Below, piece after piece: positions 1,470 through 21,733 of a stretch of DNA of 21,733 bases. How positions within the stretch are numbered: position 1 is the first letter of the stretch; every line of letters begins with the position of its first letter. Under the pieces are notes generated by a model. The model saw nothing but the letters and a program-made list of their open reading frames with translations. It was not told where the DNA came from and did no database searches. The position numbers were made by a program, and so were the translations under genes. The DNA is from a virus: positions 1 to 21,733 of the IMG/VR virus record IMGVR_UViG_3300025806_000263. One strand, given 5' to 3'.

Positions 1470-1487
1470 ATCAGTAACCTTTCTTAA

Positions 1488-1516
1488 CCTTCCTCCTTCG
1501 GGGGGAAGGCTTTTTT
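1488..1516 (+). terminator. Rho-independent terminator after the capsid gene
   Basis: CCTTCCTCC (1488-1496) pairs with GGGGGAAGG (1501-1509) as nine base pairs including one G-U. The loop is TTCG, closed by C-G, which is the very stable UUCG tetraloop. One C and six T follow (1511-1516), then ATTT. The hairpin begins 19 bases after the capsid stop and should cut transcription before the less abundant virion proteins. Confidence 0.9.
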
Positions 1517-1546
1517 ATTTACATTCAATTATCGGAGATTTCCGCA

Positions 1547-2140
1547 ATGAACGAACCTACAGACAACAGTGAAATAATGTCAGCAGAGCTAGATGCATTA
1601 AAAGCACGAGCTGATGTATTAGGCGTAAAATACCATCCTGCAATTGGTGCTGAAAAACTTGGTAATAAAATTGCCGAAGCTTTAAACGCAAAAGAAGCTG
1701 AAAAAGAAGCTGAAATTGTAAAAAATACTGTCGTTGCGCAACCAAAAGTTGTAGCAAACAAAGATTTAACTGAAGGGCAAAAACGAAAAAAAATTAAAGA
1801 AGAAGCAACTAAGTTGCTACGTGTTCGCGTAGCGTGCATGAACCCTAACAAACGAGAGTGGCAAGGTGAAACATTCTCTGTCGGCAACTCGTTAATAGGC
1901 CAAATTAAAAAATACGTGCCGTATGACACAGAATGGCATGTACCACAAATTATTGTAAACGCAATTAAAGAGCGCACTTGCCAGGTATTTACTACTACAA
2001 CCGGCCCACGCGGACAAAAAACGCGAGCTGGCAAACTCGTAGCAGAATTTGCCATTGAAAGTCTTCCGCCTTTAACAGGCAAAGAACTTCATGACTTAGC
2101 ACAAAGGCAAGCTATGGCAAATGGTTCTACTGAATACTAA
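1547..2140 (+). CDS. Small virion protein with an HeH/LEM-like N-terminal helix motif (gp55-like)
   Basis: This 197-residue protein lies between the capsid gene and the coiled-coil gene, where N4 has gene 55. Residues about 12-46 (ELDALKARADVLGVKYHP, then IGAEKLGNKIAEAL) match the short helix-extended-helix (HeH/LEM/SAP-like) motif common in phage capsid-associated proteins. Residues about 48-85 are charged and helical. The C-terminal half (RVRVACMNPNKREW, SLIGQIKKYVPYDTEWHVP, LPPLTGKELHDLAQRQAMA) is a block I recognise from N4-like phages and some other phage structural operons. GGAG at 1534-1537 sits nine bases before the ATG. Because it follows the terminator without a visible promoter, it is probably expressed by readthrough. 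A role in the virion, perhaps contacting capsid or DNA, is inferred from position; no function is proven. Confidence 0.72.
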   Translation: MNEPTDNSEIMSAELDALKARADVLGVKYHPAIGAEKLGNKIAEALNAKEAEKEAEIVKNTVVAQPKVVANKDLTEGQKRKKIKEEATKLLRVRVACMNPNKREWQGETFSVGNSLIGQIKKYVPYDTEWHVPQIIVNAIKERTCQVFTTTTGPRGQKTRAGKLVAEFAIESLPPLTGKELHDLAQRQAMANGSTEY

Positions 2141-2166
2141 ATAGTTAATTTTCTAAGGCGGCATTA

Positions 2167-4686: not shown

Positions 4687-4717
4687 AAACTTCAGATAAA
4701 TATTACATAATAAGCAT

Positions 4718-4746
4718 AATTAAGGAGCCTTTTGGCTCCTTAATTT
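4718..4746 (+). terminator. Hairpin terminator between the coiled-coil and internal-protein genes
   Basis: AATTAAGGAGCC (4718-4729) and GGCTCCTTAATT (4734-4745) form a perfect 12-pair stem around a TTTT loop. The T-rich tail is short: the arm ends in TT, one more T follows, then G. The hairpin is strong but the U-tract is weak, so partial termination, or protection of the upstream mRNA end, is more likely than a full stop. It ends 15 bases before the next ATG, so it may also affect translation of that gene. Confidence 0.68.
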
Positions 4747-4761
4747 GTTAGGCACAGTATT

Positions 4762-7611
4762 ATGGCCAGTTATTATTTATATAATTATTCACAGCACGCA
4801 AGAATGTTTCGAGATGAGGACATTCCTGATGTGGTTGCCGAAGCTGGCCGTTTAGCCATTATAAAAAACTTGCCTTTAATTCCTGTAATTCTTAGCCAAA
4901 TAAAAGATAGTCAAAGCAATAATTTTGAAAGAGCGTGGCAACTAGCAGGGCAAAGTACGGTTGGCAACACTGAAAACTCAATAGGGTTGTTACAGTTTTC
5001 GCACACCAATGTAATTAAAAACTCAGAAAAATGGACATATGGCAGCAGCAATTATAGAGCTGGTGACCCCAACGAAGAATATTTTTATAACAGAAGAGAT
5101 CCTAAATCCTATAATTTTTTTGGGGTAGCCGCATTAGCTGTTGCTGATCAATTAGCCACAAAATTTAATGTCCCTCTTACGCCGGCTCCCTACGACGGTG
5201 TAACAGAAACCCCGTATCCCAGTGAAATAGGAAAAATTAATTGGCAAACAGACATTGAGTTTGATTATCACGTTGCTAGTGAAATAAATCTTGATCACGC
5301 TAAGTGGGATTACGCTGTCAATGTATTAGGCTTTGTTGAAGAAACCGGTGAGTTAACAGAACGAACGGCTTATCATGGACATAAATGCGTTATATTGCGA
5401 GCAATCAAACGTATTAAAGGTAGCTTAACGGATGATGCTACAGCTTATTATCAGTCTCCTTGGATTGCTATAACTCGCAGCAGCAACCGTAGCGAAAAGA
5501 GTGGTCCTCTAGGAGGGCTTGGCATAACGCAAGAGGTTGATCGACTGTCTGATTATGACGCAATATACTCAATGGCTTCTGGGTATTTAAATGATTTTCG
5601 TATATCGCCTGATTTTGAAGAAGACGGTTTTGAAATTCATTATCAATACTGGGACAGCGTTGGTGATGTACAACAAGAAATTATTATAATAAATAAAAGT
5701 GAATTGCACACTTGGGGATTTATTCAAACAACTGGGCCTAATTTAGATATTCAGCCTGTTGTTATTATGGCTCAATATACGTTTACTCCAGCAAGCAGTG
5801 GATCAAATGACGTAAACGAAGGCAAACCTTATACAGGGTATATTTCATATAGCCCACCAAAAAGCGCTTTTTACGATGAAGGTAATAACAGAGGTGGTTT
5901 AATTAAAACTGCTGGTAGTTATTACGACAATAGCAGCTGGGCAAAACAGCGAGTATTAGAGTATTGGGCTGCTGCTTTTTTTGCGAGCACAACTTCAGGC
6001 GGTTCATACGACTCTGCTGAGTTATTTGAAGAAAACGCTGTTTGGCTAATAGATTCTTATAATTCAAATTTTCCGTTATTTGGTTCGTATTTCCCTGTTA
6101 TTCAGCTACGTATGAGCAGTCAGAACATTACAGAAGAATACGATCCAGACCAATGGGCTGTTAATCAAAAATTATTAAAAACCATGGGGCTTTCACAAGA
6201 AGCAATTTTAGACGCTGTATATGAAAATCCTGAAGGCACTGGTGACTTGTCAGAGATTCATCTACAAATGTCTGTTGACATGAACAGTGATAACCAAACA
6301 GACATGGCTTACACGTTTGATTGGTGGAAAGCGCGATATGACCAAGCTTATTTGCTAGAACCTAGAAATACTGTTCAAGATATTGAAAACGGTTTAGATG
6401 CTTACGATCCTTTAGAATATGGATTTTCCGAAAAATTTTGGTTTATGACGTTAACTGTACACAGTATTTCATTTCGCTACAAAATTGGGTCTATTGGGGA
6501 TGTTGGTACTTATGAAAAAGAAGTAACTCGACCATCATCTCCATCGTCGTTTCTTGATCCGCCTCCTGGATATAACAATTTTTACGACAATAAAATATCT
6601 TACCCTAGCAGAAACGGTGATGTTCAAAAGAATTCTTGGGATCAACTCGGTCAGTGGCAAAACTCCCATAAATACTGGGTTTATCGTAAACAAGTTGCTC
6701 CAAATATTTATCAAGAATTAATTGTTAAAAATCCACTAGCAGTCTATTACGGTTGGGATGGCGGCGATTGGGAAGGTGGAACAGGCCGTTGGGAATTAGA
6801 CGGAATAGGGGGCAATCGACGCTACAGAACAATGAATGCAGATCTTTCGTACGCTGCAGGCATTAACAACATGTTTCTGCCAGTTGATATGACGCAACTA
6901 GCAAGTTCTGTGCGCTCTATTAAAAAGCGAAACGAGTTTTATTATAGAAATTATCGTTTATATCTGTCTTCTTGGTCAGAAGTAAAAGTAGAGTGGTATG
7001 AAACAGAAGAATTTGCAGACTTTATTATGGTTGTTGGCTTTGCATTAGCTATTTTTACTTTTGGTGAAAGCATAGCCTTAGCTACAACTATTATTGCACT
7101 TTTAGAAGCTATTGCAGTTTGGGTGCTAACAACACTCATAATTTCATTTATAGCCAAAACCGTTGTGCGCTTGGTTGGAATTGAAGCTGCTTTAATTATT
7201 GCAACTATTGCAATGCTACTAGGCGGATTTGCCGGAGATACAGGTTTACTATCAGCAGAAAATTTGTTTTTATTTTCTAGTGGATTGTCTGGCGGCGTCC
7301 AAACAAATTTAGCTGACAAAATGGAAAAATTGGAAAAAAACAGAATTGCTTGGGAATTATCTAATGAAGAGCGTTTTGCAGAATTAGAGCAGTATGATTC
7401 CTTAATAAATACTCAGCAATTTATTGAGCCATATGCTTTCATACGTCAAGAACCGATCATAATTCCAGGAGAAGAAGCAGAGCAATATTACGAACGAATA
7501 TTTTCTGGAAATATTGGAGTTTTGACTTACGACATAGTCAACAATTACGTTGATATAAATTTAAGATTGCCAACTTTTCATGACAGTTTAGGTAATTCAA
7601 ATTACGCATAA
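4762..7611 (+). CDS. Large internal/ejection protein with C-terminal membrane segments (gp53-like by position)
   Basis: The product has 949 residues. I recognise no enzyme family. Residues 1-740 are rich in Tyr, Trp, Asp and Asn, with a Pro-rich stretch (TRPSSPSSFLDPPPGYNN) near residues 590-610. Three hydrophobic segments follow: residues about 754-770, 772-797 and 808-824, the first beginning FIMVVGFALAIFTFG and the last containing AALIIATIAMLLGGFAG. A charged helical segment (DKMEKLEKNRIAWELS) and about 90 more residues end the protein. A virion protein with late hydrophobic helices, encoded before the vRNAP, fits a protein ejected into the host envelope to form part of the channel for DNA and vRNAP; that is inference from position and topology. 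The ribosome site is weak (AGG at 4750-4752, nine bases before the ATG) and follows the 4718-4746 hairpin, so output is probably low. It contains a single cysteine. Confidence 0.6.
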   Translation: MASYYLYNYSQHARMFRDEDIPDVVAEAGRLAIIKNLPLIPVILSQIKDSQSNNFERAWQLAGQSTVGNTENSIGLLQFSHTNVIKNSEKWTYGSSNYRAGDPNEEYFYNRRDPKSYNFFGVAALAVADQLATKFNVPLTPAPYDGVTETPYPSEIGKINWQTDIEFDYHVASEINLDHAKWDYAVNVLGFVEETGELTERTAYHGHKCVILRAIKRIKGSLTDDATAYYQSPWIAITRSSNRSEKSGPLGGLGITQEVDRLSDYDAIYSMASGYLNDFRISPDFEEDGFEIHYQYWDSVGDVQQEIIIINKSELHTWGFIQTTGPNLDIQPVVIMAQYTFTPASSGSNDVNEGKPYTGYISYSPPKSAFYDEGNNRGGLIKTAGSYYDNSSWAKQRVLEYWAAAFFASTTSGGSYDSAELFEENAVWLIDSYNSNFPLFGSYFPVIQLRMSSQNITEEYDPDQWAVNQKLLKTMGLSQEAILDAVYENPEGTGDLSEIHLQMSVDMNSDNQTDMAYTFDWWKARYDQAYLLEPRNTVQDIENGLDAYDPLEYGFSEKFWFMTLTVHSISFRYKIGSIGDVGTYEKEVTRPSSPSSFLDPPPGYNNFYDNKISYPSRNGDVQKNSWDQLGQWQNSHKYWVYRKQVAPNIYQELIVKNPLAVYYGWDGGDWEGGTGRWELDGIGGNRRYRTMNADLSYAAGINNMFLPVDMTQLASSVRSIKKRNEFYYRNYRLYLSSWSEVKVEWYETEEFADFIMVVGFALAIFTFGESIALATTIIALLEAIAVWVLTTLIISFIAKTVVRLVGIEAALIIATIAMLLGGFAGDTGLLSAENLFLFSSGLSGGVQTNLADKMEKLEKNRIAWELSNEERFAELEQYDSLINTQQFIEPYAFIRQEPIIIPGEEAEQYYERIFSGNIGVLTYDIVNNYVDINLRLPTFHDSLGNSNYA

Positions 7612-7627
7612 AAGATAGGAGATTTCA

Positions 7628-8242
7628 ATGAATCAAGCAGTTAACAGATTTTTAGGTGGTGAAATTGAAGATGTAACCTCGCAGCCTTCTTGGACGTCAA
7701 AAGACATGTTGATAGGTAACACAGGGTACACAAATCAACAGGCTAATCAATCTAACCCGTGGAACAGTTCTGGTAATTATCTTCAAAACGCTGGAAAAGC
7801 TTTAAACATTACACCTGCTTCTTTTCAACAAGCAGGGCCTACCATGGGATCAGGCTATCAATTTAGTTCAGGTCAGCCATCAAGCATGTTTGAGTTTGCT
7901 GATTTAGGCTCTTTTGCAAAGAAACCATGGCAACCTAAAGGCGGTATGAAAAATTGGATGTTTGGTGAATACAACCCAGATACGGGGACTAATACGCCTG
8001 CGTATGGTATGCAGACATTAAATGCTGCACTAGGTTTAGGCCAGTCATTTCTTGGGTATCAGCAATATAAAATGGGTAAAAAAGCGTTTAAACGTTCAAT
8101 TTTTGAAAGTGATCGTAATTACAACGCACAAAAACAAACAATTAACACCGCTATGGAAGATCGCGCTAGAGCTAATTACAGCGCTAATCCTAATTTTTAT
8201 CAGTCTCCTGAACAATACATGAACAAAAACGAGATTAAATAA
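7628..8242 (+). CDS. Small internal virion protein (gp52-like by position)
   Basis: This 204-residue protein has a Gln/Asn/Ser/Gly-rich, probably disordered N-terminal half. A GMQTLNAALGLGQSFLGYQQ segment near residues 125-145 is moderately hydrophobic and Gly/Leu/Gln-rich. A basic helical tail contains KKAFKRSIFESDRNYNAQKQ, RANYSANPNFYQ and EQYM. That layout, an AxxGLGxxxLGYxxYKxGKKAFK helix followed by a short NPNxYQSxxEYM tail, recurs in small proteins encoded just before the large internal proteins of podoviruses. A strong AGGAG at 7617-7621 lies six bases before the ATG. The next gene starts one base after this stop, so the two are probably translationally coupled. It has no cysteine. 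A role as internal or ejected protein is inferred; I know no biochemical function. Confidence 0.62.
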   Translation: MNQAVNRFLGGEIEDVTSQPSWTSKDMLIGNTGYTNQQANQSNPWNSSGNYLQNAGKALNITPASFQQAGPTMGSGYQFSSGQPSSMFEFADLGSFAKKPWQPKGGMKNWMFGEYNPDTGTNTPAYGMQTLNAALGLGQSFLGYQQYKMGKKAFKRSIFESDRNYNAQKQTINTAMEDRARANYSANPNFYQSPEQYMNKNEIK

Positions 8243-8243
8243 T

Positions 8244-9620
8244 ATGCCTATTACGTGGAAAAATATTGAAGCCGATGCAGGAAAAATGGCTGTTAGCAAT
8301 GATTTTTTAAACAGCGCTAACACCAATATGGCCGCAGGTATTGGTCAATTTCAAACTGTTTTAAACAATGAAAAACAACGCCAAGAAGACAACCGAGAAA
8401 TTGTTACTGATAACAATACTTTGTCGTATCAGAAGTTTTTAAATTCAATGAGTCCTGAACAACTTCAAGAAGCACAAGCGTCTGGAGCCATAAACAATCA
8501 ATTGGGGCAATACGGAAAATCTATTGACCAAAATGTTGCGTTAAATGGTTTTAACGACAGGCTTAATGCTGCACGAAGCGAGTTTAACGCAGGGGTTACG
8601 TACGACAACAATGTACGTGACGAGAAAGAGCGACCAACTATTCAGCAGTTTAAAGCAGCTATTGCGGGTGATGATGATGCCGCTTTTGCAAAACTTACTG
8701 CAGATAACCCTGGCTTAAGTAATTTAGGGGACTTAACAAATGAGTACAACGATAAGGAAAGACGTAGGTTAGAAATCGGCAGAACAGAAAAGATAATAAG
8801 CAGTAAACAAACGATGGATTCCATAATTCAAGACGGATTTGCGGCTGGTAAAACTGAACGTGAGATTCAGACTGATATACACGCAGCACGAGTTAGCGGG
8901 GACATATCGGGAGATGATCAAAATAAAGCTGTTACTACAACTTCAGATTATTTTGCTGCGCAATACAACATGACGCCCACTGAAAAAATTAATTATAATA
9001 CTGACATAGCTAAACTTGATGCAGCTTACAATGCTGCTGTGGAACGTGCTGAGCTTGTAAACCAGCAAGCAGAGGAAACTTATAAATTAAACGAAGGGTT
9101 TAACAGCACGACAATACCAGACAATAACACTGCAAGCACTGCGTTAGAAACGTTTAAACAGAGCGGCTTTGATCAAAACCCTACTTGGGGCACATCGCCT
9201 GACAAATTAATTAATGACCAGCGTGAGCGATTGCTTCATGGAGAAGTACTAAAAAACGCAAAGGGTAATCCTATTTTAGAAAACGGAAAACCTAAACGAG
9301 CGGGAGGTATAGACGGCGATCTGCAAGAAGGTGAAGCGTACGCAATAATAACTCACGCTTTGAAAAAATTTCTGGCGAACAGTGGCGCTGTTTTCACCGA
9401 AAATTTGGGAATTGAGGAACTGAACACAGCAGTTAACAATTCATTGGAAACTTATTTGATAGGTAACGCAAAAAGAGCTGAGCATGAAAAAAACCAACAA
9501 GATCATTTACAATATATGCAAGGTCTTAACACCGCGTACGGAGCAGGCAAGACTGATGCACTAAGAAAGAACACAACCAAGTTTAACCAACAAAAAATAC
9601 AAAACGCTAAAATACAATAG
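8244..9620 (+). CDS. Internal virion protein, MPITWKNI type (gp51-like by position)
   Basis: The product has 458 residues and no cysteine. It begins MPITWKNIEADAG, a start resembling the (S/P)(L/I)TWRN(V/I)xAP openings of internal proteins of many podoviruses. The rest is hydrophilic and helical, with repeated Asn/Gln/Asp/Glu stretches (GIGQFQTVLNNEKQRQEDNR, NPGLSNLGDLTNEYNDKERR, RERLLHGEVLKNAKGNPI). No membrane segment or catalytic motif is visible. The ATG is one base past the previous TAA; upstream there is only GAG at 8231-8233, ten bases away, so initiation likely depends on ribosomes finishing the 204-residue gene. It lies directly before the vRNAP gene, as N4 gene 51 does before gene 50. 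It probably packs inside the capsid and leaves with the polymerase, which is inferred from position and composition. Confidence 0.6.
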   Translation: MPITWKNIEADAGKMAVSNDFLNSANTNMAAGIGQFQTVLNNEKQRQEDNREIVTDNNTLSYQKFLNSMSPEQLQEAQASGAINNQLGQYGKSIDQNVALNGFNDRLNAARSEFNAGVTYDNNVRDEKERPTIQQFKAAIAGDDDAAFAKLTADNPGLSNLGDLTNEYNDKERRRLEIGRTEKIISSKQTMDSIIQDGFAAGKTEREIQTDIHAARVSGDISGDDQNKAVTTTSDYFAAQYNMTPTEKINYNTDIAKLDAAYNAAVERAELVNQQAEETYKLNEGFNSTTIPDNNTASTALETFKQSGFDQNPTWGTSPDKLINDQRERLLHGEVLKNAKGNPILENGKPKRAGGIDGDLQEGEAYAIITHALKKFLANSGAVFTENLGIEELNTAVNNSLETYLIGNAKRAEHEKNQQDHLQYMQGLNTAYGAGKTDALRKNTTKFNQQKIQNAKIQ

Positions 9621-9646: not shown

Positions 9647-12600
9647 ATGGCAACTCCAGCAGAACAAGTACTAGCATCTTTAGCACCAAAATCACAAGCA
9701 ATTGCGGCAGCAACAGAAAACAAGACAATTCAGCTAGGCAATTTAACTGTGCCCAGTGAACAGGTGCTTGTAAACCCTGCGTATGAAACTCAAAATAATC
9801 GCAATTTACGAAATCAAGCGGCTTTAGAAAAAATTAAAGCGTCAAATGCTGCTGTAAGAGAATCTGACAAAACTGCTTGGAGAAAAAGTGATGAAGACGG
9901 TGTTTGGCCGTGGATGAAAGATACTGCTGCAAGAATAAGTACAGTAAGCAGTAGGATTGTTAATGAAACAATTAATGCACCGTCAAGCATAAGAAGTGCT
10001 GCTAGAGCTTCTTTATTAACTGAAAAAACAGCCGATATTGGTCGGCGTGACCAGGATTATCTTCGATACCAAGAATTAATTAGTCAACCAGGCAGTCCGA
10101 TAGTTAAAGACGAACGTGACTTGGCTTTGTTGAATAATCCACCACAGCCTATTACGCAAGAAGAATCTGAGTATTTAAATCAAAGACCTGTACAAACAGA
10201 CGAGCAACTTAGAGGGTCACAGCTTGGTGGATCGGGGCAGAAAGAAAAAGCAACGACAAGTATCTACTCTCGCAAAGAGCTGCTTGATAAAATTGACAAA
10301 AGTGCTGAATTTAGAAAAAAAGTAGATAAAGCTTTTGAAAATAGTCTGTCAGTAAAAGGAATAGTACAGAAAAATAAACAAAATAGATTAGATAACGCAG
10401 TTCAAAAAGATTTTGAAGTAATGGACGGTGAAAAACGTTTAGATACTATTGTTGGGGAATGGAAAGAAGGTAACAAGGTTGATAGTGCAATAGAAACAGC
10501 CAAGTTAATTGGCGACATGACTACGTCTTTAATAGAAAACGGAGCAAATAATAAAATTGCTGTAACTGGGTATATAGCAGAAGTTATTCCTTACATGATG
10601 GCAGGAATGTACGGTTCAAAAGACAAAATAGTTGGCGGAAAAGAGGTATTAGCTGGAATTAACGCAGCTTACGCTGGAAACATTTATTCTGATGGTGTTG
10701 AGCATTATAAGAAAGAAAACAATGGAGAAATTCCAGTAGGTAAAAACAACGCAGAAATAGCGACATGGAGCGCAGCTGCAGGAAGTGTTGAATTAGCGGG
10801 TAACTTAACTTTGTTAGGTACTTTAAGACCTAAAACTATGAGTTTGGAAGCCGCTAATAAAATACTTACTCGCGGAGCCGCAAGAAACACTCTAAATAAA
10901 ACTGTTGCTGCAACAGGTACGACTGCTAAAGGTGCAGTAGTGGAATCCGCAACAGAAGTAGGGCAAACGTCTATTGAAGATAATTTTTCAAAGCTAAACA
11001 GAGATTTTGATGTTCCTAAACTGGTTCATGCATTAGCAGCTGGATTTTACGGCGGTGGTGGTGTGGCAGCTCCAGGCGCAGCAATAAACGCATTAACAAC
11101 GCCTGACAATACAACGCAAAAAGCAAAAAAACGTGTAAATTCAAACCTAAATAAAATAGTAGAAAAAGCATTTGAATCTGTGAATACAGGTGACGTTGCT
11201 GATTTAGTTGATAAGGATAAGCCTGAAACTTACAGTCCGTTACATGCTGCAAGCGCTTTAAAAATGCGTTTAGAAAATCCTAATCTAACTGAAGATGAAA
11301 AAGTCGAAGCAACTGAAACATTAAATAACGTTATAAAAGATTCTGAACAAGTAATGGACGATTTAGCTAGTAAAATCGAAACCATTACGCCATTAACTAT
11401 ACAAAAAAGAAAAAATAACCTTAAAAAAGTGTTTTCTGATCTTAAAATGTTAAAAGAACAAAAAGATTCTGTGCCTCCTGTTGCTGAAGGTGAGCCGGCT
11501 TTATCTAAAAAAGAAATAGCAAAAGAAATTAAAAGAAAAAATATAGCTTATAGAAAAGCAGAAAAGCTAGCTAAGGCAGCAAGAAAAAATCAAGAAACTA
11601 AAATAAAAGAAGAAAAAGAATTTTTAGCAACAAAGCCAGTTAAACAGCTTGTTGCTATGCGTAAAGCAATGAATGATGTGTACAGCCAACAAGATAATGC
11701 TGGAGAAAAAGCAAGCGAGCCTGCAGTAGCTGCCGCTGATAGTGTTATTGATAGTGCAGATGCAACGCCTGAACAAAAAGAAGAAGCAGCACAACAAACT
11801 GTCAGTTATATGCTGAATAATGAAGTATTTGCTACGCCAGAACGGGCACAACGGTTATTGGATAGCAACCTGACAGGATTTACGCCGCAACAAACAGAAT
11901 ATTTAAAAGCAATGTTAGATGCGCCGGCTGGAGATAGTAAAGTAAGTAAAGAAGTTACTGATGGACAAAGTAAAGGATTAGCTTCGTACGCAAAAAGAAT
12001 TGCTTCTGCAGTGCGCTTGAACGATAAAAACACTGCTGATAAACAACAAACTGATATTAAAGAATGGTTAACCAGTACTGTAAGTAAAAAGAAAGCTGTT
12101 GATTCAGCCGACGCAGCGTTTAAAGCGGGTCCTCAAGGTAAGCGCGTTACGCAATACGTGTATAAAACCGATGCAAATTCAAATGAATGGACGACTTCAG
12201 ACGTAAAACCTGCAAATTTCAAAGAGTTACAAGGCTTAACGTTTGAAGGCAGGCAAAAAAACATTGTTGAAGAAATGGGACAAGAAGTAAAAGCTATTAA
12301 AGCAATGGATAGGCAAATAGCTGCTGCTATTGATTTAAAATGGAACAATCAAGATGCTACACAGCCTGCGCCTGAGTCCACGCCCACGCGTGGATCTCAG
12401 GAAGCGGCTGCTACACCAACACAAGAAACAGCACAATCAACTGAACAAGACACACTTAACGAGTCTGAAAGTGTTGCACCTACAGAAAGTACGCCTACTG
12501 CACTTACTACAGAAAACACTGTGGAGCCTGCGTCGGTTTCCGTCGCTGACGGACAACCGGTAGCGGCGACTCAAAGCACGCCAGAAGTTGAAGCAACAAA

Positions 12601-15600
12601 AACCCAACTTACTGAATTAAATGCAATTAATGATAACGGCGACGTAAACTTTACTCCTGAAGTACTTACTGTTATGAATGCTGATCCTGTATCGTTTGCA
12701 GCGGCTGTGACAGCACTTAAAGCGCCTACCGCACCAGTTGAGCCTGTAAACACAGAAACAGCTCAGCCGGCTGCACAAGCGCCTGTAAAAGCAGCTAAGC
12801 CTACACCAAAGAAAAAGAAACAAACATACGCAGAAAAAGTTTTTGCTAAATACAGAGCAATTATAGATGACCCAGACTCTAGTACATTTAAAAAAATTAA
12901 TGCTGCTGCAAGTTTATTAAAAAATGCTAAAACAGCAGGCAACACTAATCAAGCCGCAGAAGCACAAGCGGTGTTGGCTGAGTTTAAAGAACAAGGTTAC
13001 GAAACAACTCTTGCTGTAGGCGACAACTACAATGAAGGAATGCGAGTAGTCGCAAATTTTGTACCTGATGACAGTCTTTATGAAGACGAGCAAATAATAC
13101 AAAAAATAGTAAAGCCGCAAATTAATAAAGACGGCAAAATGGTTCAAGCTGGATCAATAGTAGTATCTCAAGGCACTAAAGTTAGAGAACAGCCTACTAC
13201 TACTGTGGCTAGGGAGTCTGCGCGACAACCCCAGGAAGTAAATTCTTCTGAGTCTGGAGTGGAGGCGCAGCCGGAAGGACAGCGAAGAACGGATTTAGTT
13301 CCTGGGGTTGTTGAAGCGACAACCAGCCAAGAACCACAAACATCTGCTACAGCCCAAGAAGCAGAACCGCAAGTGCAAGCAAAAACCGCAAAAGCGCCTG
13401 CCCGTGAACAAATAACTATCAACCTTGATGATTATAAACTTGGGATAGATGCGCTCGACGCTGCCCTAAAAGCAACCATTAATACCGCTCAGCGTACAGT
13501 CTCCCGTGGGGAGGTTAAAGAAGCTACAGCGGGGGGGTTCTACTCGATGTTTAAGGCAAATATTAGCCGACACTATGAAGCCAATGGCGCACAACCAGGA
13601 AAGTCGGAAGAAATTCGTAAAAAAGTGGTTGCGGAAACATTAGGCGAAGTCGATATTCACGAACAAGTAACCCGTGCTTTGCGTACCCACACATCACTTG
13701 AGATCCCATTAACTCGTTTTATTCGCGGTAGAGCGGATATGGCTGAAACGGTTAATGGGATTTTAGGATCGCTCAGCGGAACCAAGGATTTCCAAGCTCT
13801 CCCCGCAGAAGTAATGGGTCCCATTGTCGAAGAGTACCTCAACACTCTCCCTCTCATTCAGGTTAGCAAAAAAGGGGAGAACGCGTCTGCTCCAGTAACT
13901 GATACATCTTCGTTGCAAGAAAAAGCCAGTGACAATACTCAAGAGTCTGCTAGCAACACTTCTGTAAAGAATGTTGCACAAGAAGAAACAGATGCGCTTA
14001 CGGCAGAAACAGGCCGATCAAAAGTTCTTTTGAAAGAAACTAAAGAAGAAGCGGCGTTACCGTTTAAAGAAGCTAATTTAATTAAACGTTGGGTAACCCA
14101 AGGTAAAAAGAAAGCTAGCGATATAACTAAACACGCACTTGTTGCGCAAAAAGATTTCTTTGCAACTTTATTAAGAAAAGACGGACAAGGCGCACAAATA
14201 CTTCAAGATCTCATTGGTAATGAAGAATTAACTCCCGAACAAAAACAATTGTTGTTTAAATTAGCTAAATATACGCAAGCATGGCGTGGCAAAATTTCAA
14301 ACAACATGTCTCACAAAGCAGTTCATAAAACATGGAGCGATAAAGCTAAGTACTTTAAAGAACCAATTTTGAACGAAGCTGGAGAAATTATTGGATACGA
14401 AGATCTAGAAGCAAATATTGAAGACGCAATGGTTACTGCAGCGTTTCAATATTTAGTAGAGCACATTCGTGATACGGGTTTTAATACTGAATCAGAAATT
14501 CAATATTTGCTAGGTTTAGATAGTAATAGCAGTATAACTGCTTCTGCTGTTTCTATTTACGGCGAAGGTTGGGGACAAAACCATGCTCTGCATAATGAAA
14601 TTGGCAAAAATGTTATTAGCATACTCAATCTCAAATTAAAAAATGATCCCTCAACAGAGCCACCGCTCGATGTTATGAACACATTAGCAACGTCATTTGG
14701 TGCGACGGCTGTAGGATTATTATTACAAGAAGGTATTTTAGAGCAGCGTTCTTTTACTCAACAAGAGTATTTAGAAGCAACAGGGCAATCTGACGCCCCA
14801 ATGAATAGAATTGTTGCATACCGCATACGTAGAGATTATGCCCCTGACAAAAGAAATAAAGGTACTGCGCCGTTAATATCATTAGATAATGGTTTACCGC
14901 CATTGTCATCAATGCTTGAACAAGTCGTTGGTTCAACTGCATTGTTTGTTAAATTGTTTGGGGCAGAAGCAGGAAAGAAATTTCCAACGTTTACACCACA
15001 GCAAAACGAACAAAATAAAACCAGTAAAAGTATGCAAGAAATGCCCAAATTAGGCACTGAAAGATTAAACGCGCATAACAATACTGCATATCAACTTAAA
15101 GAAACTATGGCTTTTCTTGTAGAAGAACTTGGAGAACAATTTACTAAGTTGGCAATGGGTTGGGTGGATGTAGACAGTAATCCTGAAATAATGCACAAAG
15201 TAGACCGAGAAAGCCAACAAGCTGTTAATGCAGAAATTGAGCGTGCAATAGATCAGTTCAACGAATTTAAAGAAATATTAAAAACGCAAAAAGATGGTGC
15301 ACAAACACCGTTTTATCTGCAATCAGTTATGTGGATAAATCAACGAGTGGGTTATGTACAAAACGCTATAAACCCACAAACAAGCAAGTTTATTCGTCAC
15401 ATGATAGGCGCATCGGCGTATAAACAGACTATTCAATTTGACGGCACAGAAAAAGACACGCAGTTACAAAATATTTTCTTACTTGCTGTAGCGCAAAATC
15501 TTGGCTTTAAAATTGAAAATACAAAAAATACTGACACAGTTGCAATCTTGCAAGATGAGATGAGTCAGCCAAATAATGTTCGCGTACAATCAATTATGGC

Positions 15601-18600
15601 AAATTTGCTTGATCCTGGCAGAGTTGTACCAGTGTCTGCAGAAGACTCTCAAGCTTTATTAGATTTTGTAGCATCACGCAAAGAAAAATTTGCTGTCGTT
15701 GACGCGTTATCGCAATACGTACAATTTATGGATGCAGCAAATAACAACGTTCCATTTGAAGCCAATATAATGATGGAAATTGACGGAGTAGCTAATGGGC
15801 CGGCACTTCTTCATATGCTGTTAGGTACAAGATTAGAAGATTTTGGTGAGGCATTCGGGTTCTTTACAAAAGATTCTGAACATGAAAGTTTTGCTGACTA
15901 CAAAAAAGAAGGGCTAGGAGATTTTTACGAAAAAACAACAGTGCGTTTAAAAGGCTATTTAGCAAACTACTTGTCAGCACCTTGGGTAAAAAGTGATAAA
16001 GAAAAATATGAATCAAAAAACAAAAAGAACAAACAAGTATTAAGCATTGTTTCAAATTTTATTTCTGAATCAGAAAAGCCGCTTATAGCTGATGGAAAAG
16101 CGACAGCAGCTGGACGTAAATTTTCTAAAGGTCCATTAACGCCTCTGATGTTTGGATCATCAGGCAAAAAAGCTTTTAGCTCGTTAGCTGAAAGTATTTT
16201 AGATAATTACACGGGAATTATTCTAAGTTTAAAAAACAATCCACAAGAGTTGGAAAGATTTTTAACAGACTTAAACTTTTTAACAAAAAAACAAGCAGGC
16301 AAACAGGACGGATTTAAAATCATTGTTCCAGGCATAAATACAAAAATGTCGTGGAATCAAGCAATGGAATTTGAGTTGAGCACGCGACAATATAATTCAG
16401 CAAAAGAAACAATTTACAACGCATTAGAACCAAGCACTGATACACTTATTACGAACTATTTTAGTGAATTAATGGAGCGCAGAGACGCAATAGCTACAGC
16501 AAGTAGTACTGCGCACGCGCAATATAATCTTGCTTACACACTTGCACGAAAACAATACATAGACGAATTAATTGAACAAGGATTAATAGCAACTCCTGAT
16601 AACGGCAAAGCACCTTTACATGATTTAACGGCTACTCAAGAAGCAGAAGTGCGAAGACGAGTGCAGTTAATGGAACCTACTGTACATAGTAGAATGTCAA
16701 AGCAAGAAAATAACCCTGGCGCTGGATTGCGCATGTCAAAAATGGGTTTTGCATCTACAGATGGTTTTGAAAATGCATATAAAACGAAGACTTATTTCAA
16801 TTCTCCAATAAATGTTGCAACTAGATTGGCTCGATTAACAGAAGAAGAAGTTAATGAAACAAGAGAATTTTTACAAAGCTATGCTCAAAAATTAGTAGAA
16901 CAAGAACCTGGAGCAGGAACAACGCCGGCAGGCACGCATTCAACTGATAGTAATATTGCATCTAAAGTGTACGGAAAATTTAAAGCACTTAATGTACATG
17001 ACGCATTAGGCGTGTCTATTGCTGACGCTGTAGATGTTGCAAAAGATCTTAATAAAGAAACTTTTGTAAGTTTAGTAGAGTATTCTTTGCCCACTGAAGT
17101 TGTTACATCAGCAGAACGTGTAAATCGTCAATTTAAAGAATGGGTTGCAGCAAATCCAGAATTAAAAAATGAAATAGATCGTGGCATAAATGAGTATGCA
17201 GAAAATACTATAAAAAGAAATAAAGATTTGTTAGAGGGTGTGCAAAATAAGGATGTAGCTGACGCTGTAATTTCTAATTTAGCTCAAATAGCTGAACAAG
17301 CTGAAATAGCAAAATTACAGCACTTGCATACGTTACGCGTAGTTAACCAATATAATTTTGAAGATGGTGGTTGGTCTGTTACTCCAGAATGGAAAGCTAA
17401 CATTGAAGCACGTCTTATTGCTTTAAATGCGCCGTTAACTGCTCCTGTAGCTTCTGTATCTACAGTAGAGACTGCCAATCCTAAAACAGAGCCGGATATG
17501 CCATCAGACAGTGCTAGTGGCGCTCAAGTTGGTATGCCTGTTAAGCAGCCAGATTCAAAAACAGAACAAAATATTAATCGTCGTTTAAAGACGATACTAA
17601 CAAAGTTACCAAACCTGACAGCTAAATCAATTATTGCCCATTTAAACCAACAAATGGACAAAACCACTTTGACGCCAACTGAGCAAGCCTACAAAACATT
17701 ATTGCCTAAGTTAAATGAAATTGTTGATCCAGATATAGCAATTGTTTATGTAACTAAAGACATGAAAATGCCAAAAGGGACTGAAACAGCGTACGGGTGG
17801 TTTAACCCAAATTCTACTAAGGATTATCCTAATGGCGCAATTTTTATCAAAAGTGATGAACATACACATTCAAACGTTTCAGCAGAATTAATAGCGCATG
17901 AGTTGCTACATGCGAGCGTTAAGACACAAATGTTTAATGCTCGAAAGAGAAAAAATAAAACTGCAGCTGACAAAATTGTTTTAGCCGCAGTTGATAATTT
18001 AGAAGTAATTAGAAAAGCCGCCGAGGACTATATTGCTAGTAACAATTTAGAAGGCTTTGGTAACGCAGTAAACGACGTTGATGAATTGATTGCTTGGGGC
18101 ATTACTAATGAACGCTTCCAAAAAGAAGTGCTTGGTCAACTGGTAATTGACAATAAAAAGCTAAAAGAAACAGGCTTGGAAAATTCTGTTAAAAATGGCA
18201 TTAAACAATTTATTAAAGCAATAGGACAAATACTTAATGCAAATTTAGGTGCTAAAGCAAACACAGCAGCCAGTATTAATGCATTACAGCTTGTGTTTGC
18301 TAACACTGCTGCTGTTATGTCAACAGTAGATAGCAGAGGTGTTCAAGCGTTAAGTAATAAACAACGCATTAGTAAGCAAGACAGCGGTGCTCCTATAAGC
18401 TTTAGCCACAGGAGAGTATTTGAAGCGCTAGGCAATTCGCACGGTGCGCCAAGTACACCAAGACATGTAGGCAGAATGGCTAGTGCATTGGAACAAGTAG
18501 TCGAAACAGTGTACGGGCCTTTTGGAATGTTCCAAGCTGAAGCTGAACGTAGTTCGCCGGCAATAGCTACAGATGTATTTTTGCAATCTTTGGCCAACAA

Positions 18601-21600
18601 AACTAAACCATTTACTTCTAAGGCGTTAGGGGTATTGCAATTAAATGATCAAGAAGCGTTTACTTTAGAATCAGTTGAGCTGGTAATGAAAGAAGCGCTA
18701 GAAACAGACACTATTGCATCTTTAGAATTAGCTAAAGTGTTTGAAGAAGTGCGTAACTCACTGTCTGCTACAGATTTTTATTCAGGAGACGTAGCACAAG
18801 CCCAAGAAATTTATGATTTTATATTTAACGCAGATCAGCGCATTGACGAAAAAAGATCAGATTATTTAAGTAGGTTTTCTGCTTTAGCTGTTGCGTACGC
18901 GCCTTTAGCGTCTGCTATGGATCAATTAACTGTTCCTGAATCAGAGAATCAGCAAGGCAGTACGTTACTAGAAAAAGTTAGCAAAGTTGTTAAAGACGCA
19001 TTTAATAGACTCCGAAAAATTATTACTAGAACAAGCTCTGCGAATACGCAAAGTCAGCGCCATGCTATTTTAGCCAAAAATTTAGCTACAATTCGGAAAA
19101 AAGAAGCTGCACGACTACAAAAAGACAAAACTGTTTTAAACATTGCAGAAAACACAATAGATACACTGGCAGAAAAAGGGAAAAACAAACTAGTATCAGT
19201 TTTAGCGTCAAACCGGTTTAATAATAAATCTACAATTATTAAAGCATTTAGTTCAATAGGGCAAGTGGCTTTGTCAGGGCAAGGAGAAGCAATTGTAAAG
19301 ACAATTAATAAAGTACGTAATGAACTTACTGAAGGCAAGCAAGGCGTACTTATGAACATTGTTACTGATTTACAAGGTCGAACTATAGACTCTCAAATAT
19401 ATCACACGTTATTAAATGCGGCTAACAGGCACATGCAACAACGCCAGCAAACAACTAAACAAATAAGTAAATTAGTTGTAGACGCGTTTTCACGTCCTTT
19501 AAATAAAGATGAATCAGTAGCAGTTACAGAATTAATACGTACTGATTTATCTGATTTAGTAACTACTTACTCAATGAAAGAACTACAAGAATTGTTTGAC
19601 CAGGATCAAACAATTTTAGATAGTCGCATTGAAGAACTAAGTTCGCAATTAACAGGCAAAAATAAATTGTATTATTTATATGCGGCTAAAGCGTTAGCTG
19701 ATCATATGATGACTTCAAATACTCACGAAAATCAAGTTCAAAATGTTTATCAAATAGCAAGAATGGACGGATTTTCTGATAGTGTGCCGGCAAGTGAGCA
19801 AAAAGATTTAGTTAAGATACTTAACCCGTTAGTTACATTGCTGTCTATTAAATATATGGAAGAAGCTCCAGCTAACTCTTCTGCACTTTCTGGCGCATCG
19901 AAAAAATCAATGTTACGTAAGCTATTTGAACTGGAGAATAATCGTCTTGCCGAAGACGGAACTCCTGATGTAAATAAAAACGGCATAGAATATGTATTAC
20001 GTTTGCACGCTAGCATGAAGAAAGATGCGTTAAAAAGTTCTTTTGACAACGATCCTAGTTTAATGAAAAAAGGGTATGTTAGAGAAATAAACAATCCTAA
20101 TATTAGTATAAAAGCAGCTGATCCTTTCAAGGGCAAGGAGCTAGAGCGGGCTGGCTATAAAAAAGTATGGCCGTATAATTCTCCGTTACCTGTAGATGAA
20201 GATGCAGTAACTAGTAATTATGTACCGCAACATTTATACATAGCAAAAGGATTAGGACTGCAAAAAGTAGTATCAGGTATAGTATCAAACAAAAATACGC
20301 GAGCAAAAGGATCTTTAGCAGGTATAGACAATAACGGCGAATTTAGTCGGGCTAGAATAGTTGAGATAACAGCTAAAAAAGGCAAAAAACTAAATAGTTT
20401 AAAAGCTATTCCTGAAAATTGGGACCCACGAAGTGACCGAAAAACAAGATTAGCCCCAATTTGGAACCCTAAAGGAAATATAGTTGGTTGGCGGCAATTG
20501 ATGAAGGAAACTACAAAAGATGCGCTAATGTCTCCAGATCGTAGAATAGACCAGGTACTTGGGGCAACGGCAGGAAGTATTTTTGACAAGGCAGGATCAG
20601 AGGCAATTAATAAAAAAGTTGTTGAAGCGCATTACAAACAATATCAAGAAGACTATCTTGCGAATCCTAATAGTTATATTCATGTTCATGAAAATAGCAA
20701 AGATCCTGAAATTGCTGAACGTGCTAAATTACTTCCAAAAACTACTAAGCGCCAAATTAATGCAGTTTGGGGAAAAACTGGTTTAAATGGAATGATGATT
20801 AAAAACGACGTATACAATATGTCGGTTGGGTATCGAAAATATTCAATTACTGAAGGGTATGATAAAAAAGCTTTAAGTTTAAAAGCAGCGATAAAAACAG
20901 CTATTCCGTATTCACTTAATGATGAGCAGCAACGTACAATTGTTGAACAAGTAACTATTGGTATTGCGACTAAATTAGGCGTATCACAATTGCGCGTTAA
21001 ACAAACAGAAGATCTTTGGCAAGAAATTGTAGGAGTTGTTAAAGACATACTAGTTGTTAAAAATTTAGTAACGTTTTTAGGCAATTTATCAAGTAATGCA
21101 ACGCTTCTTGCTTGGTCAGGCGTGCCAATAAATAAAATTATTGCAGGGCATATAAAAGGGTTTATTGATATAAACAGGTATGAGAAAGATGAAAAAAGGT
21201 TGTTTGAGCTGAAAAATAAGCTAGAGACAGGGTATTTTGCGGGGGCTTTAGAAAGGAATGTAAGGCAGGATATTGTTCGTCTTGAAAACGCTTTAGAGCG
21301 TAATCCAGTACATAGTGAAGTACAAGCTGGGTTGTATCAAACTATTGTTGAAGATGGTATTGAAACAGACGATGACCCTTATTCAATGAAATCAGCGTTA
21401 ATGGCGTCTATTGATGAAAAGACGCAAAAAGTTCCTAAATTAATTAAAAACGGCGTTAAAATTGCTTTAATGACTCACGACACAGCGCTTTATAAAATGT
21501 TGCATAAAGGTACGCAGTACAGTGACTTTATTGGTCGGCTTGTACTGATAGAGCATTTACAAACGCGTAAAAAAGATCCTTTATCAATTGTAGCCGCTCG

Positions 21601-21733
21601 TAACAGAGCACAAGATTCTTTTGTTAACTACGATATTCCGCAACATAAAGGATTGCAGTATTTAAATGACACTGGATTAATTTGGTTTACTAAATATTAC
21701 ATTCGTATTCAAAAAACAATTATTAATCTTTTG
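9647..21733 (+). CDS. Giant N4-type virion RNA polymerase (gp50-like), 3' end outside the window
   Basis: The frame is open for 4029 codons to the last base, so the protein is longer than N4 vRNAP (about 3500 residues). N4 vRNAP is packaged, injected with the DNA, and transcribes early genes from hairpin promoters. Visible order: N-terminal region (1-900) with Gly/Ala-rich hydrophobic stretches near 300-345 and 460-480; Pro/Thr/Ala/Gln/Glu linker (905-1060); small domain (1060-1182); linker and GC-rich island (1182-1408); linker (1408-1458); polymerase module (1459-2594); linker (2594-2644); HELLH metallopeptidase-like region (2640-2860); and a long helical C-terminal region (2860 on). Polymerase motifs are motif A MEIDGVANGPALLHM (D2046), motif B R2157-xxx-K2161-x7-F2169-G, and motif C VHDALGVSIADA (D2452). 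Reading every codon gave no cysteine and no stop. The polymerase call is very secure; roles of the flanking regions are not known. Confidence 0.95.
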   Translation, partial: MATPAEQVLASLAPKSQAIAAATENKTIQLGNLTVPSEQVLVNPAYETQNNRNLRNQAALEKIKASNAAVRESDKTAWRKSDEDGVWPWMKDTAARISTVSSRIVNETINAPSSIRSAARASLLTEKTADIGRRDQDYLRYQELISQPGSPIVKDERDLALLNNPPQPITQEESEYLNQRPVQTDEQLRGSQLGGSGQKEKATTSIYSRKELLDKIDKSAEFRKKVDKAFENSLSVKGIVQKNKQNRLDNAVQKDFEVMDGEKRLDTIVGEWKEGNKVDSAIETAKLIGDMTTSLIENGANNKIAVTGYIAEVIPYMMAGMYGSKDKIVGGKEVLAGINAAYAGNIYSDGVEHYKKENNGEIPVGKNNAEIATWSAAAGSVELAGNLTLLGTLRPKTMSLEAANKILTRGAARNTLNKTVAATGTTAKGAVVESATEVGQTSIEDNFSKLNRDFDVPKLVHALAAGFYGGGGVAAPGAAINALTTPDNTTQKAKKRVNSNLNKIVEKAFESVNTGDVADLVDKDKPETYSPLHAASALKMRLENPNLTEDEKVEATETLNNVIKDSEQVMDDLASKIETITPLTIQKRKNNLKKVFSDLKMLKEQKDSVPPVAEGEPALSKKEIAKEIKRKNIAYRKAEKLAKAARKNQETKIKEEKEFLATKPVKQLVAMRKAMNDVYSQQDNAGEKASEPAVAAADSVIDSADATPEQKEEAAQQTVSYMLNNEVFATPERAQRLLDSNLTGFTPQQTEYLKAMLDAPAGDSKVSKEVTDGQSKGLASYAKRIASAVRLNDKNTADKQQTDIKEWLTSTVSKKKAVDSADAAFKAGPQGKRVTQYVYKTDANSNEWTTSDVKPANFKELQGLTFEGRQKNIVEEMGQEVKAIKAMDRQIAAAIDLKWNNQDATQPAPESTPTRGSQEAAATPTQETAQSTEQDTLNESESVAPTESTPTALTTENTVEPASVSVADGQPVAATQSTPEVEATKTQLTELNAINDNGDVNFTPEVLTVMNADPVSFAAAVTALKAPTAPVEPVNTETAQPAAQAPVKAAKPTPKKKKQTYAEKVFAKYRAIIDDPDSSTFKKINAAASLLKNAKTAGNTNQAAEAQAVLAEFKEQGYETTLAVGDNYNEGMRVVANFVPDDSLYEDEQIIQKIVKPQINKDGKMVQAGSIVVSQGTKVREQPTTTVARESARQPQEVNSSESGVEAQPEGQRRTDLVPGVVEATTSQEPQTSATAQEAEPQVQAKTAKAPAREQITINLDDYKLGIDALDAALKATINTAQRTVSRGEVKEATAGGFYSMFKANISRHYEANGAQPGKSEEIRKKVVAETLGEVDIHEQVTRALRTHTSLEIPLTRFIRGRADMAETVNGILGSLSGTKDFQALPAEVMGPIVEEYLNTLPLIQVSKKGENASAPVTDTSSLQEKASDNTQESASNTSVKNVAQEETDALTAETGRSKVLLKETKEEAALPFKEANLIKRWVTQGKKKASDITKHALVAQKDFFATLLRKDGQGAQILQDLIGNEELTPEQKQLLFKLAKYTQAWRGKISNNMSHKAVHKTWSDKAKYFKEPILNEAGEIIGYEDLEANIEDAMVTAAFQYLVEHIRDTGFNTESEIQYLLGLDSNSSITASAVSIYGEGWGQNHALHNEIGKNVISILNLKLKNDPSTEPPLDVMNTLATSFGATAVGLLLQEGILEQRSFTQQEYLEATGQSDAPMNRIVAYRIRRDYAPDKRNKGTAPLISLDNGLPPLSSMLEQVVGSTALFVKLFGAEAGKKFPTFTPQQNEQNKTSKSMQEMPKLGTERLNAHNNTAYQLKETMAFLVEELGEQFTKLAMGWVDVDSNPEIMHKVDRESQQAVNAEIERAIDQFNEFKEILKTQKDGAQTPFYLQSVMWINQRVGYVQNAINPQTSKFIRHMIGASAYKQTIQFDGTEKDTQLQNIFLLAVAQNLGFKIENTKNTDTVAILQDEMSQPNNVRVQSIMANLLDPGRVVPVSAEDSQALLDFVASRKEKFAVVDALSQYVQFMDAANNNVPFEANIMMEIDGVANGPALLHMLLGTRLEDFGEAFGFFTKDSEHESFADYKKEGLGDFYEKTTVRLKGYLANYLSAPWVKSDKEKYESKNKKNKQVLSIVSNFISESEKPLIADGKATAAGRKFSKGPLTPLMFGSSGKKAFSSLAESILDNYTGIILSLKNNPQELERFLTDLNFLTKKQAGKQDGFKIIVPGINTKMSWNQAMEFELSTRQYNSAKETIYNALEPSTDTLITNYFSELMERRDAIATASSTAHAQYNLAYTLARKQYIDELIEQGLIATPDNGKAPLHDLTATQEAEVRRRVQLMEPTVHSRMSKQENNPGAGLRMSKMGFASTDGFENAYKTKTYFNSPINVATRLARLTEEEVNETREFLQSYAQKLVEQEPGAGTTPAGTHSTDSNIASKVYGKFKALNVHDALGVSIADAVDVAKDLNKETFVSLVEYSLPTEVVTSAERVNRQFKEWVAANPELKNEIDRGINEYAENTIKRNKDLLEGVQNKDVADAVISNLAQIAEQAEIAKLQHLHTLRVVNQYNFEDGGWSVTPEWKANIEARLIALNAPLTAPVASVSTVETANPKTEPDMPSDSASGAQVGMPVKQPDSKTEQNINRRLKTILTKLPNLTAKSIIAHLNQQMDKTTLTPTEQAYKTLLPKLNEIVDPDIAIVYVTKDMKMPKGTETAYGWFNPNSTKDYPNGAIFIKSDEHTHSNVSAELIAHELLHASVKTQMFNARKRKNKTAADKIVLAAVDNLEVIRKAAEDYIASNNLEGFGNAVNDVDELIAWGITNERFQKEVLGQLVIDNKKLKETGLENSVKNGIKQFIKAIGQILNANLGAKANTAASINALQLVFANTAAVMSTVDSRGVQALSNKQRISKQDSGAPISFSHRRVFEALGNSHGAPSTPRHVGRMASALEQVVETVYGPFGMFQAEAERSSPAIATDVFLQSLANKTKPFTSKALGVLQLNDQEAFTLESVELVMKEALETDTIASLELAKVFEEVRNSLSATDFYSGDVAQAQEIYDFIFNADQRIDEKRSDYLSRFSALAVAYAPLASAMDQLTVPESENQQGSTLLEKVSKVVKDAFNRLRKIITRTSSANTQSQRHAILAKNLATIRKKEAARLQKDKTVLNIAENTIDTLAEKGKNKLVSVLASNRFNNKSTIIKAFSSIGQVALSGQGEAIVKTINKVRNELTEGKQGVLMNIVTDLQGRTIDSQIYHTLLNAANRHMQQRQQTTKQISKLVVDAFSRPLNKDESVAVTELIRTDLSDLVTTYSMKELQELFDQDQTILDSRIEELSSQLTGKNKLYYLYAAKALADHMMTSNTHENQVQNVYQIARMDGFSDSVPASEQKDLVKILNPLVTLLSIKYMEEAPANSSALSGASKKSMLRKLFELENNRLAEDGTPDVNKNGIEYVLRLHASMKKDALKSSFDNDPSLMKKGYVREINNPNISIKAADPFKGKELERAGYKKVWPYNSPLPVDEDAVTSNYVPQHLYIAKGLGLQKVVSGIVSNKNTRAKGSLAGIDNNGEFSRARIVEITAKKGKKLNSLKAIPENWDPRSDRKTRLAPIWNPKGNIVGWRQLMKETTKDALMSPDRRIDQVLGATAGSIFDKAGSEAINKKVVEAHYKQYQEDYLANPNSYIHVHENSKDPEIAERAKLLPKTTKRQINAVWGKTGLNGMMIKNDVYNMSVGYRKYSITEGYDKKALSLKAAIKTAIPYSLNDEQQRTIVEQVTIGIATKLGVSQLRVKQTEDLWQEIVGVVKDILVVKNLVTFLGNLSSNATLLAWSGVPINKIIAGHIKGFIDINRYEKDEKRLFELKNKLETGYFAGALERNVRQDIVRLENALERNPVHSEVQAGLYQTIVEDGIETDDDPYSMKSALMASIDEKTQKVPKLIKNGVKIALMTHDTALYKMLHKGTQYSDFIGRLVLIEHLQTRKKDPLSIVAARNRAQDSFVNYDIPQHKGLQYLNDTGLIWFTKYYIRIQKTIINLL
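12362..12410 (+). repeat. Inverted repeat in the first linker of the giant gene
   Basis: CCTGAGTCCACG (12371-12382) pairs with CGTGGA, one bulged T, and CTCAGG (12389-12401), giving 12 pairs with a six-base loop. CAGCC (12362-12366) and GGCTG (12406-12410) add five pairs beyond an internal loop. The hairpin lies wholly in coding sequence for Pro/Thr/Ala-rich linker. Confidence 0.8.
12534..12559 (+). repeat. Second bulged inverted repeat in the same linker
   Basis: CGGTT plus TCCGTC (12534-12544), loop GCT, and GACGGA, bulged C, AACCG (12548-12559) form 11 pairs. As in the hairpin at 12362-12410, six inner pairs are followed by a single bulged base on the 3' arm. Confidence 0.75.
13223..13313 (+). 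repeat. Long inverted repeat at the left part of the GC-rich island
   Basis: ACAACCCCAGGAA (13225-13237) is a perfect 13-base inverted match to TTCCTGGGGTTGT (13299-13311). After one G-G mismatch, TAAATTC (13239-13245) pairs with GGATTTA (13291-13297), allowing one G-U. C13223 with G13313, and a G-U inside it, extend the base outward. The loop is 45 bases. Confidence 0.85.
13501..13513 (+). repeat. Short 5-pair hairpin with 3-base loop in the island
   Basis: CTCCC, loop GTG, GGGAG. It is short enough to arise by chance. It resembles the shape of N4 vRNAP promoter hairpins, but no further promoter feature supports that use. Confidence 0.45.
13701..13763 (+). repeat. Long bulged inverted repeat at the right part of the island
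   Basis: ATCCCATTAAC (13703-13713) pairs with GTTAATGGGAT (13751-13761) in 11 Watson-Crick pairs. After bulged T13714, CGTTT (13715-13719) pairs with AAACG (13746-13750). G-U and A-T pairs extend both ends. The loop is about 24-26 bases. All of it is coding. Confidence 0.85.
14021..17428 (+). other. Catalytic polymerase module inside the giant protein
   Basis: Residues 1459-2594 form a module of about 1136 residues, close to the 1106-residue N4 mini-vRNAP, with disordered-looking linkers on both sides. Arg1900 in WINQRVGYVQNAINPQ aligns with the T7 DxxGR / N4 TxxGR arginine, with the NPQ that also follows it in T7. D2046 and D2452 are the expected metal-binding aspartates. R2157 and K2161 are the motif-B basic residues. 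From memory of N4 numbering, D559 to Y678 to D951 spans 119 and 273 residues; here the gaps are 123 and 283. The position of the motif-B tyrosine is F2169. The module should transcribe early phage DNA after injection. Confidence 0.92.
17564..18226 (+). other. HELLH zinc metallopeptidase-like region inside the giant protein
   Basis: Residues about 2640-2860 contain AELIAHELLHASV with H2751, E2752 and H2755, the HExxH signature of zincins. A downstream NDVDELIAWGITN places E2813 58 residues after the second histidine as a plausible third ligand. The stretch before it (DIAIVYVTKDMK, GAIFIKSDEH) looks like the beta strands that precede the active helix in this fold. Related HExxH domains occur in the large polyvalent proteins of phages and conjugative elements. 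Self-processing, or cleavage of a host protein after ejection, are possible roles; neither can be shown here. The domain call is moderate because it rests on one motif plus context. Confidence 0.62.

Follow-up and report, generated by a model that had tools for sequence, protein, structure and literature searches.

Phenylalanine at the motif-B tyrosine position of an N4-like virion RNA polymerase co-occurs with a histidine at the T7 His784 position

A giant virion RNA polymerase gene and its polymerase module

The stretch of viral DNA analyzed here, referred to as the window, comprises all 21,733 nucleotides of IMG/VR record IMGVR_UViG_3300025806_000263. Six of its open reading frames (ORFs) match an N4-like head and ejection block in the order of N4 gp56 to gp51, and they are followed by a very large last ORF that sits directly 3′ of two ejection-protein-type genes, as in the gp56-gp50 order of N4 (Table 1). 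This last ORF spans 4029 amino acids within the window and runs off the contig end. Its stop codon is found on contig L002, which comes from another sample and matches the window at 100% identity over the polymerase module, and there the gene has ∼4091 codons in all. Residues 1180-4028 of the ORF match PHROG 2206 'virion RNA polymerase' (1410.8 bits, E-value 0), and a Pfam search of the protein gave sub-threshold matches only. The last ORF encodes a virion RNA polymerase (vRNAP) of the Schitoviridae (N4-like) type.

To see how the module, which occupies the middle third of the protein, folds, we examined an AlphaFold2 model of it, which was confident (pLDDT 87.1, pTM 0.86) and whose best PDB match in a Foldseek search was N4 mini-vRNAP (2po4, E-value 7.8e-30), followed by the yeast mitochondrial RNA polymerase and then T7 RNA polymerase. 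Since a direct phmmer search of the module against PDB sequences gave no match, the structural link rests on AlphaFold and Foldseek. A first-pass annotation of the window, made from the sequence alone, had named the protein a virion RNA polymerase and had pointed to N4 mini-vRNAP as the structure on which to model it, and both hold on the PHROG match, the AlphaFold2 model and the Foldseek result.

Table 1. Features of the window that bear on the virion RNA polymerase
Feature	Position	Strand	Basis and remarks
Structural and ejection-type genes (major head protein, five further ORFs)	132..9620	+	PHROG matches
Giant virion RNA polymerase gene	9647..21733	+	PHROG 2206, E 0; open at contig end
Single-subunit RNAP module, N4 mini-vRNAP equivalent	14144..17536	+	Residues 1500-2630; AlphaFold2 and PDB match
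R1900, DxxGR-type motif arginine (N4 R424, T7 R425)	15344..15346	+	Invariant among 56 relatives; aligned to T7
Motif A, D2046-GVAN-G2051 (T7 D537-GSCS-G542)	15782..15799	+	D and G invariant; aligned to T7
Motif B, R2157-KFS-K2161-GPLTPLM-F2169-G2170	16115..16156	+	Translation, codon check, alignments
H2431-S-T-D2434, T7 H784-SQD equivalent	16937..16948	+	Aligned to T7 H784; proposed ribose/minor-groove checkpoint
Motif C, H2451-D2452 (T7 H811-D812, N4 D951)	16997..17002	+	D invariant; aligned to T7

The window protein shares its fold, catalytic residues and gene order with N4 vRNAP (gp50). The catalytic residues, including R1900, D2046, R2157, K2161 and D2452, are invariant among 56 aligned relatives, and so is Gly2051, which occupies the T7 Gly542 position. 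In family A DNA polymerases the position of T7 G542 holds a bulky acidic steric-gate residue. A DNA-polymerase-like active site was rejected for the module, since Gly2051 stands at the steric-gate position, and the bulky acidic residue taken as the mark of a DNA-polymerase-like or mixed-substrate enzyme is absent.

The family is marked by very large proteins of ∼3500 amino acids; the window protein is ∼600 residues longer than N4 vRNAP and has long Ala/Thr/Glu/Pro-rich stretches between residues ∼880 and 1320. Like the N4 protein it lacks cysteine (0 in 4029 amino acids), and both carry an HExxH motif in their C-terminal part. In the window this motif reads HELLH (residues 2751-2755, positions 17897-17911), which fits the HExxH motif reported in the C1 domain of N4 vRNAP (PMC12633501).

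Motif-B phenylalanine and its distribution

The motif-B region translates as ATAAGRKFSKGPLTPLMFGSSGKK, in which K2161 is encoded at 16127-16129, F2169 by TTT at 16151-16153, as first read, and G2170 at 16154-16156. The motif had been placed at 16118-16156; its sequence stands as given but its start does not, because 16118 falls at K2158 and R2157 lies just upstream at 16115-16117. F2169 lies opposite N4 Tyr678 without gaps in alignments of 17 and then 143 vRNAPs. When a profile of 56 vRNAPs was aligned with seven Autographiviridae RNA polymerases (93% probability, E-value 2.9e-7), motif B was again ungapped and T7 Tyr639 fell opposite F2169, so that the placement of Phe at the T7 Y639 / N4 Y678 position is upheld by all three alignments. 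For the same reason, a different tyrosine at the sugar-contact position was ruled out. A base-call error is very unlikely and a mis-framed motif was likewise ruled out, since the same Phe is found in L002 and in the nearest relative, L022, which is 47% identical.

The profile-profile alignment is local, stopping after motif B and excluding the H784 region. For that reason, the match of H2431 to T7 H784 rests on a profile-to-T7 alignment together with the shared HSxD pattern. The hhalign comparison with T7 alone had an overall probability of only 4.6-6.6%, yet its motifs are in register (DxxGR, DGSCSG/DGVANG, H784-SQD/H2431-STD and HDS/HDA), and from this low-probability alignment we used the motif register alone.

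The first-pass annotation had drawn attention to the natural Phe at this position and had proposed counting it across Schitoviridae. This count does not bear out that Phe is unusual for the family: Phe was found in 61 and Tyr in 115 of 176 non-redundant vRNAPs, with no other residue present, although these numbers hinge on locus sampling and are not natural frequencies. Besides the window, Phe occurs in the vRNAPs of Litunavirus, Luzseptimavirus and Littlefixvirus and in dozens of environmental contigs, and the 'Y678F' state was reported in 2010 for the vRNAPs of Pseudomonas phages LUZ7, LIT1 and PEV2 (PMC3715699), the one paper of the literature searched that applies this term to a polymerase. 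Because 61 of the 176 relatives lack the motif-B tyrosine, as the window does, and the exception is already published, this tyrosine is, by alignment, usual in the N4 vRNAP family yet no defining trait of it. T7-like RNA polymerases were uniform, with Tyr at the motif-B position and His at the H784 position in 87 of 87 sequences each.

The Litunavirus and Luzseptimavirus enzymes (Pseudomonas LIT1, LUZ7, PEV2, KPP21 and Ps1.JH) belong to the same family as the window vRNAP and also combine Phe at the N4 Y678 position (PMC3715699; here L005, L007 and L081) with His at the H784 position. They are nevertheless only ∼26% identical to the window module, their motif reads KKPLTAMMFGS where that of the window reads KGPLTPLMFGS, and the window protein is longer (∼4091 amino acids). 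The motif region of L006 (PP852687.1), an unverified 'Photobacterium phage TEMp-D1', is letter-for-letter that of the Pseudomonas Litunavirus Ps1.JH, and its host label may be wrong.

The history of the position was reconstructed on a tree of 68 rows from which the trait columns had been left out during building. The minimum number of Tyr/Phe changes is eight (seven to eight on bootstrap trees), at least five of which are forced by well-supported branches, on trees built from alignments of ∼25% identity. On the simplest reading, Phe would have been gained once, anciently, in the clade of the window and separately in L395 and L452, with several returns to Tyr (the Cbunavirus-like enzymes, the L076/L079/L085 group, the L030 group, L052 and L345), the direction of each change being contingent on midpoint rooting. 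Both L452 and L395 carry Phe and fall within Tyr enzymes with a PLMI/PVMI-type motif, which makes them useful as independent cases for testing the Phe/His rule proposed below.

Co-occurrence of phenylalanine with the His784-equivalent histidine

In T7 RNA polymerase, ribose discrimination is known to involve a pair of residues, Tyr639, whose hydroxyl contacts the 2′-OH, and His784, which reaches the minor groove or contacts the 2′-OH (PMC4551944; PMC13286181). We counted both positions jointly across the 176 vRNAPs. Within this sample Phe and His co-occur strictly, with 61 Phe/His enzymes and no Phe/non-His enzyme, while Tyr is found with His (18), Gln (28), Gly (63) or other residues (6), the 63 Tyr/Gly enzymes being those on the N4 side. 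A double state resembling Y639F/H784A, the T7 combination used for bulky 2′ groups (PMC4551944), is absent from all 176 natural vRNAPs.

On a tree of 121 rows we could place nine His-to-Gln events. Six of them lie on Tyr branches that started from His (16.8 length units) and three on Phe-to-Tyr branches (2.6 length units); the Phe branches, with 31.3 length units, have none. If the rate were uniform, zero His losses on Phe branches would have a probability of ∼0.404^9 = 3e-4. The control was branch-based, since ancestry dominates plain mutual information between columns. Across 872 columns, H2431 changed 0 times on Phe branches versus 11 times elsewhere (p = 3.5e-4), a value that counts as significant when T7 biochemistry supplies the candidate and fails a blind-scan correction for 872 columns; it ranked fourth of the 872, tied with S2480, and had been recognized as a candidate by inspection after the alignment was viewed. 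An independent-pairs sign test on a small, underpowered sample gave four pairs in the same direction and none opposite (p = 0.125). Since two Tyr revertants, the L030 group and L052, kept His, the link between Phe and His is one-way. The dependency of Phe enzymes on the H784-equivalent His appears to be new.

Two serines show a similar avoidance of Phe branches, S2435 (16949-16951; 1 versus 10 changes) and S2480 (17084-17086; 0 versus 11). They may belong to the same pocket as H2431, or to the same adjustment.

Ribose selection in the phenylalanine enzymes

Sequence comparison establishes where the Phe lies, that the catalytic set is intact, that Phe is widespread and that, within this sample, it is strictly tied to His at the T7 His784 position. 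The explanation we favor, at a probability of roughly 60%, is that the window encodes a normal early N4-type vRNAP of a large Phe lineage, in which the ribose check is carried by His2431 and the Gly2051 pocket. By analogy with N4, the enzyme would make RNA from early promoters after injection; vRNAPs of the N4 family recognize single-stranded hairpins as early promoters, and the early region lies outside this 21.7-kb contig. Loss of the bond between the Tyr hydroxyl and the 2′-OH would be tolerated because His2431 would still check the ribose or the minor groove and because the remaining pocket (Gly2051 and R1900) is RNA polymerase-like. Selectivity for rNTPs would then stay useful, though perhaps somewhat relaxed. 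The rule we propose is that a vRNAP can give up the Tyr hydroxyl or the His, but not both. One remark of the first-pass annotation, that the enzyme may compensate elsewhere, has thereby become the preferred one, as 61 of 61 Phe enzymes keep the His784-equivalent histidine.

The most serious competitor, which we nonetheless consider unlikely, is neutral drift. In that case this lineage could simply do without the Tyr hydroxyl, and the His pattern would be due to common descent rather than to compensation. Most Phe enzymes do trace to a single ancient gain, other columns show a comparable asymmetry (S2480 among them), and the sign test is not significant. Against this, His was also present in the background of the two further gains of Phe, in L395 and L452, its loss was seen on three Phe-to-Tyr branches and never along the long Phe branches, and the residue in question is the known T7 partner. 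It is less probable still that the sugar contact has been taken over by another residue or a fold change, for example by Ser2435, which adjoins the His motif. Of 53 Phe enzymes, 51 have Ser at this position, where most Tyr enzymes have Ala or Gly, and its branch counts lean the same way; however, two Phe enzymes have Ala there, several Tyr revertants have kept Ser, and the association is weaker than that of H2431.

The first-pass annotation had also raised the use of dNTPs, giving primer synthesis and mixed RNA/DNA polymerization as examples. Here the Phe would reflect a dNTP tolerance used in vivo, by which the injected polymerase would make short DNA or primers of mixed RNA and DNA. The Y639F change in T7 and Y564F in Syn5 loosen selection against 2′-modified substrates (PMC4538805), and N4 vRNAP is reportedly needed for N4 DNA replication (PMC2784036). 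Yet N4, which has Tyr, needs its vRNAP for replication as well, so Phe is not required for a replication role. The proposal is unsupported: Gly2051 and all RNA polymerase catalytic residues are retained, none of the computed results points to dNTP incorporation, and the presence of His2431 in every Phe enzyme is contrary to what selection for laxity would be expected to produce. We therefore regard this use of dNTPs as very improbable, and the same holds for its variant in which Phe-type vRNAPs are relaxed in the cell, checked only by the H784-equivalent His, and the phage exploits this, for example by placing dNMPs in early transcripts or primers.

If the ribose check does reside on His2431 and the Gly2051 pocket, this suggests that the N4 Y678F and T7 Y639F mutants are imperfect guides to the window enzyme. 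The mutant analogy drawn in the first-pass annotation is right as to the residue position, but the behavior of the N4 mutant cannot be carried over directly. N4 pairs Tyr678 with Gly at the H784 position (IGTGDG), where the window has Phe and His, and since N4 has no His, its Tyr-to-Phe mutant would lose both checkpoints and would be a poor model for a natural Phe enzyme. T7 Y639F and Syn5 Y564F share the motif-B residue of the window, and T7 Y639F also retains H784; these two are engineered, whereas the Phe of the window is natural and evolutionarily stable. In the literature searched, no biochemistry on any Phe enzyme was found.

T7 Y639F is a classic engineered mutant, built to relax sugar choice, and the same state has been kept naturally in a large lineage of phage polymerases, apparently gained at least two more times and reverted several times, and in the sampled data never found without the second ribose-checking residue, T7 His784. 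The question of which residue is responsible for sugar selection can thus be put to pairs of natural enzymes in a simple mutant experiment, making the two-residue rule directly testable, and the natural panel of Phe/His, Tyr/His, Tyr/Gln and Tyr/Gly enzymes may serve RNA synthesis with modified nucleotides.
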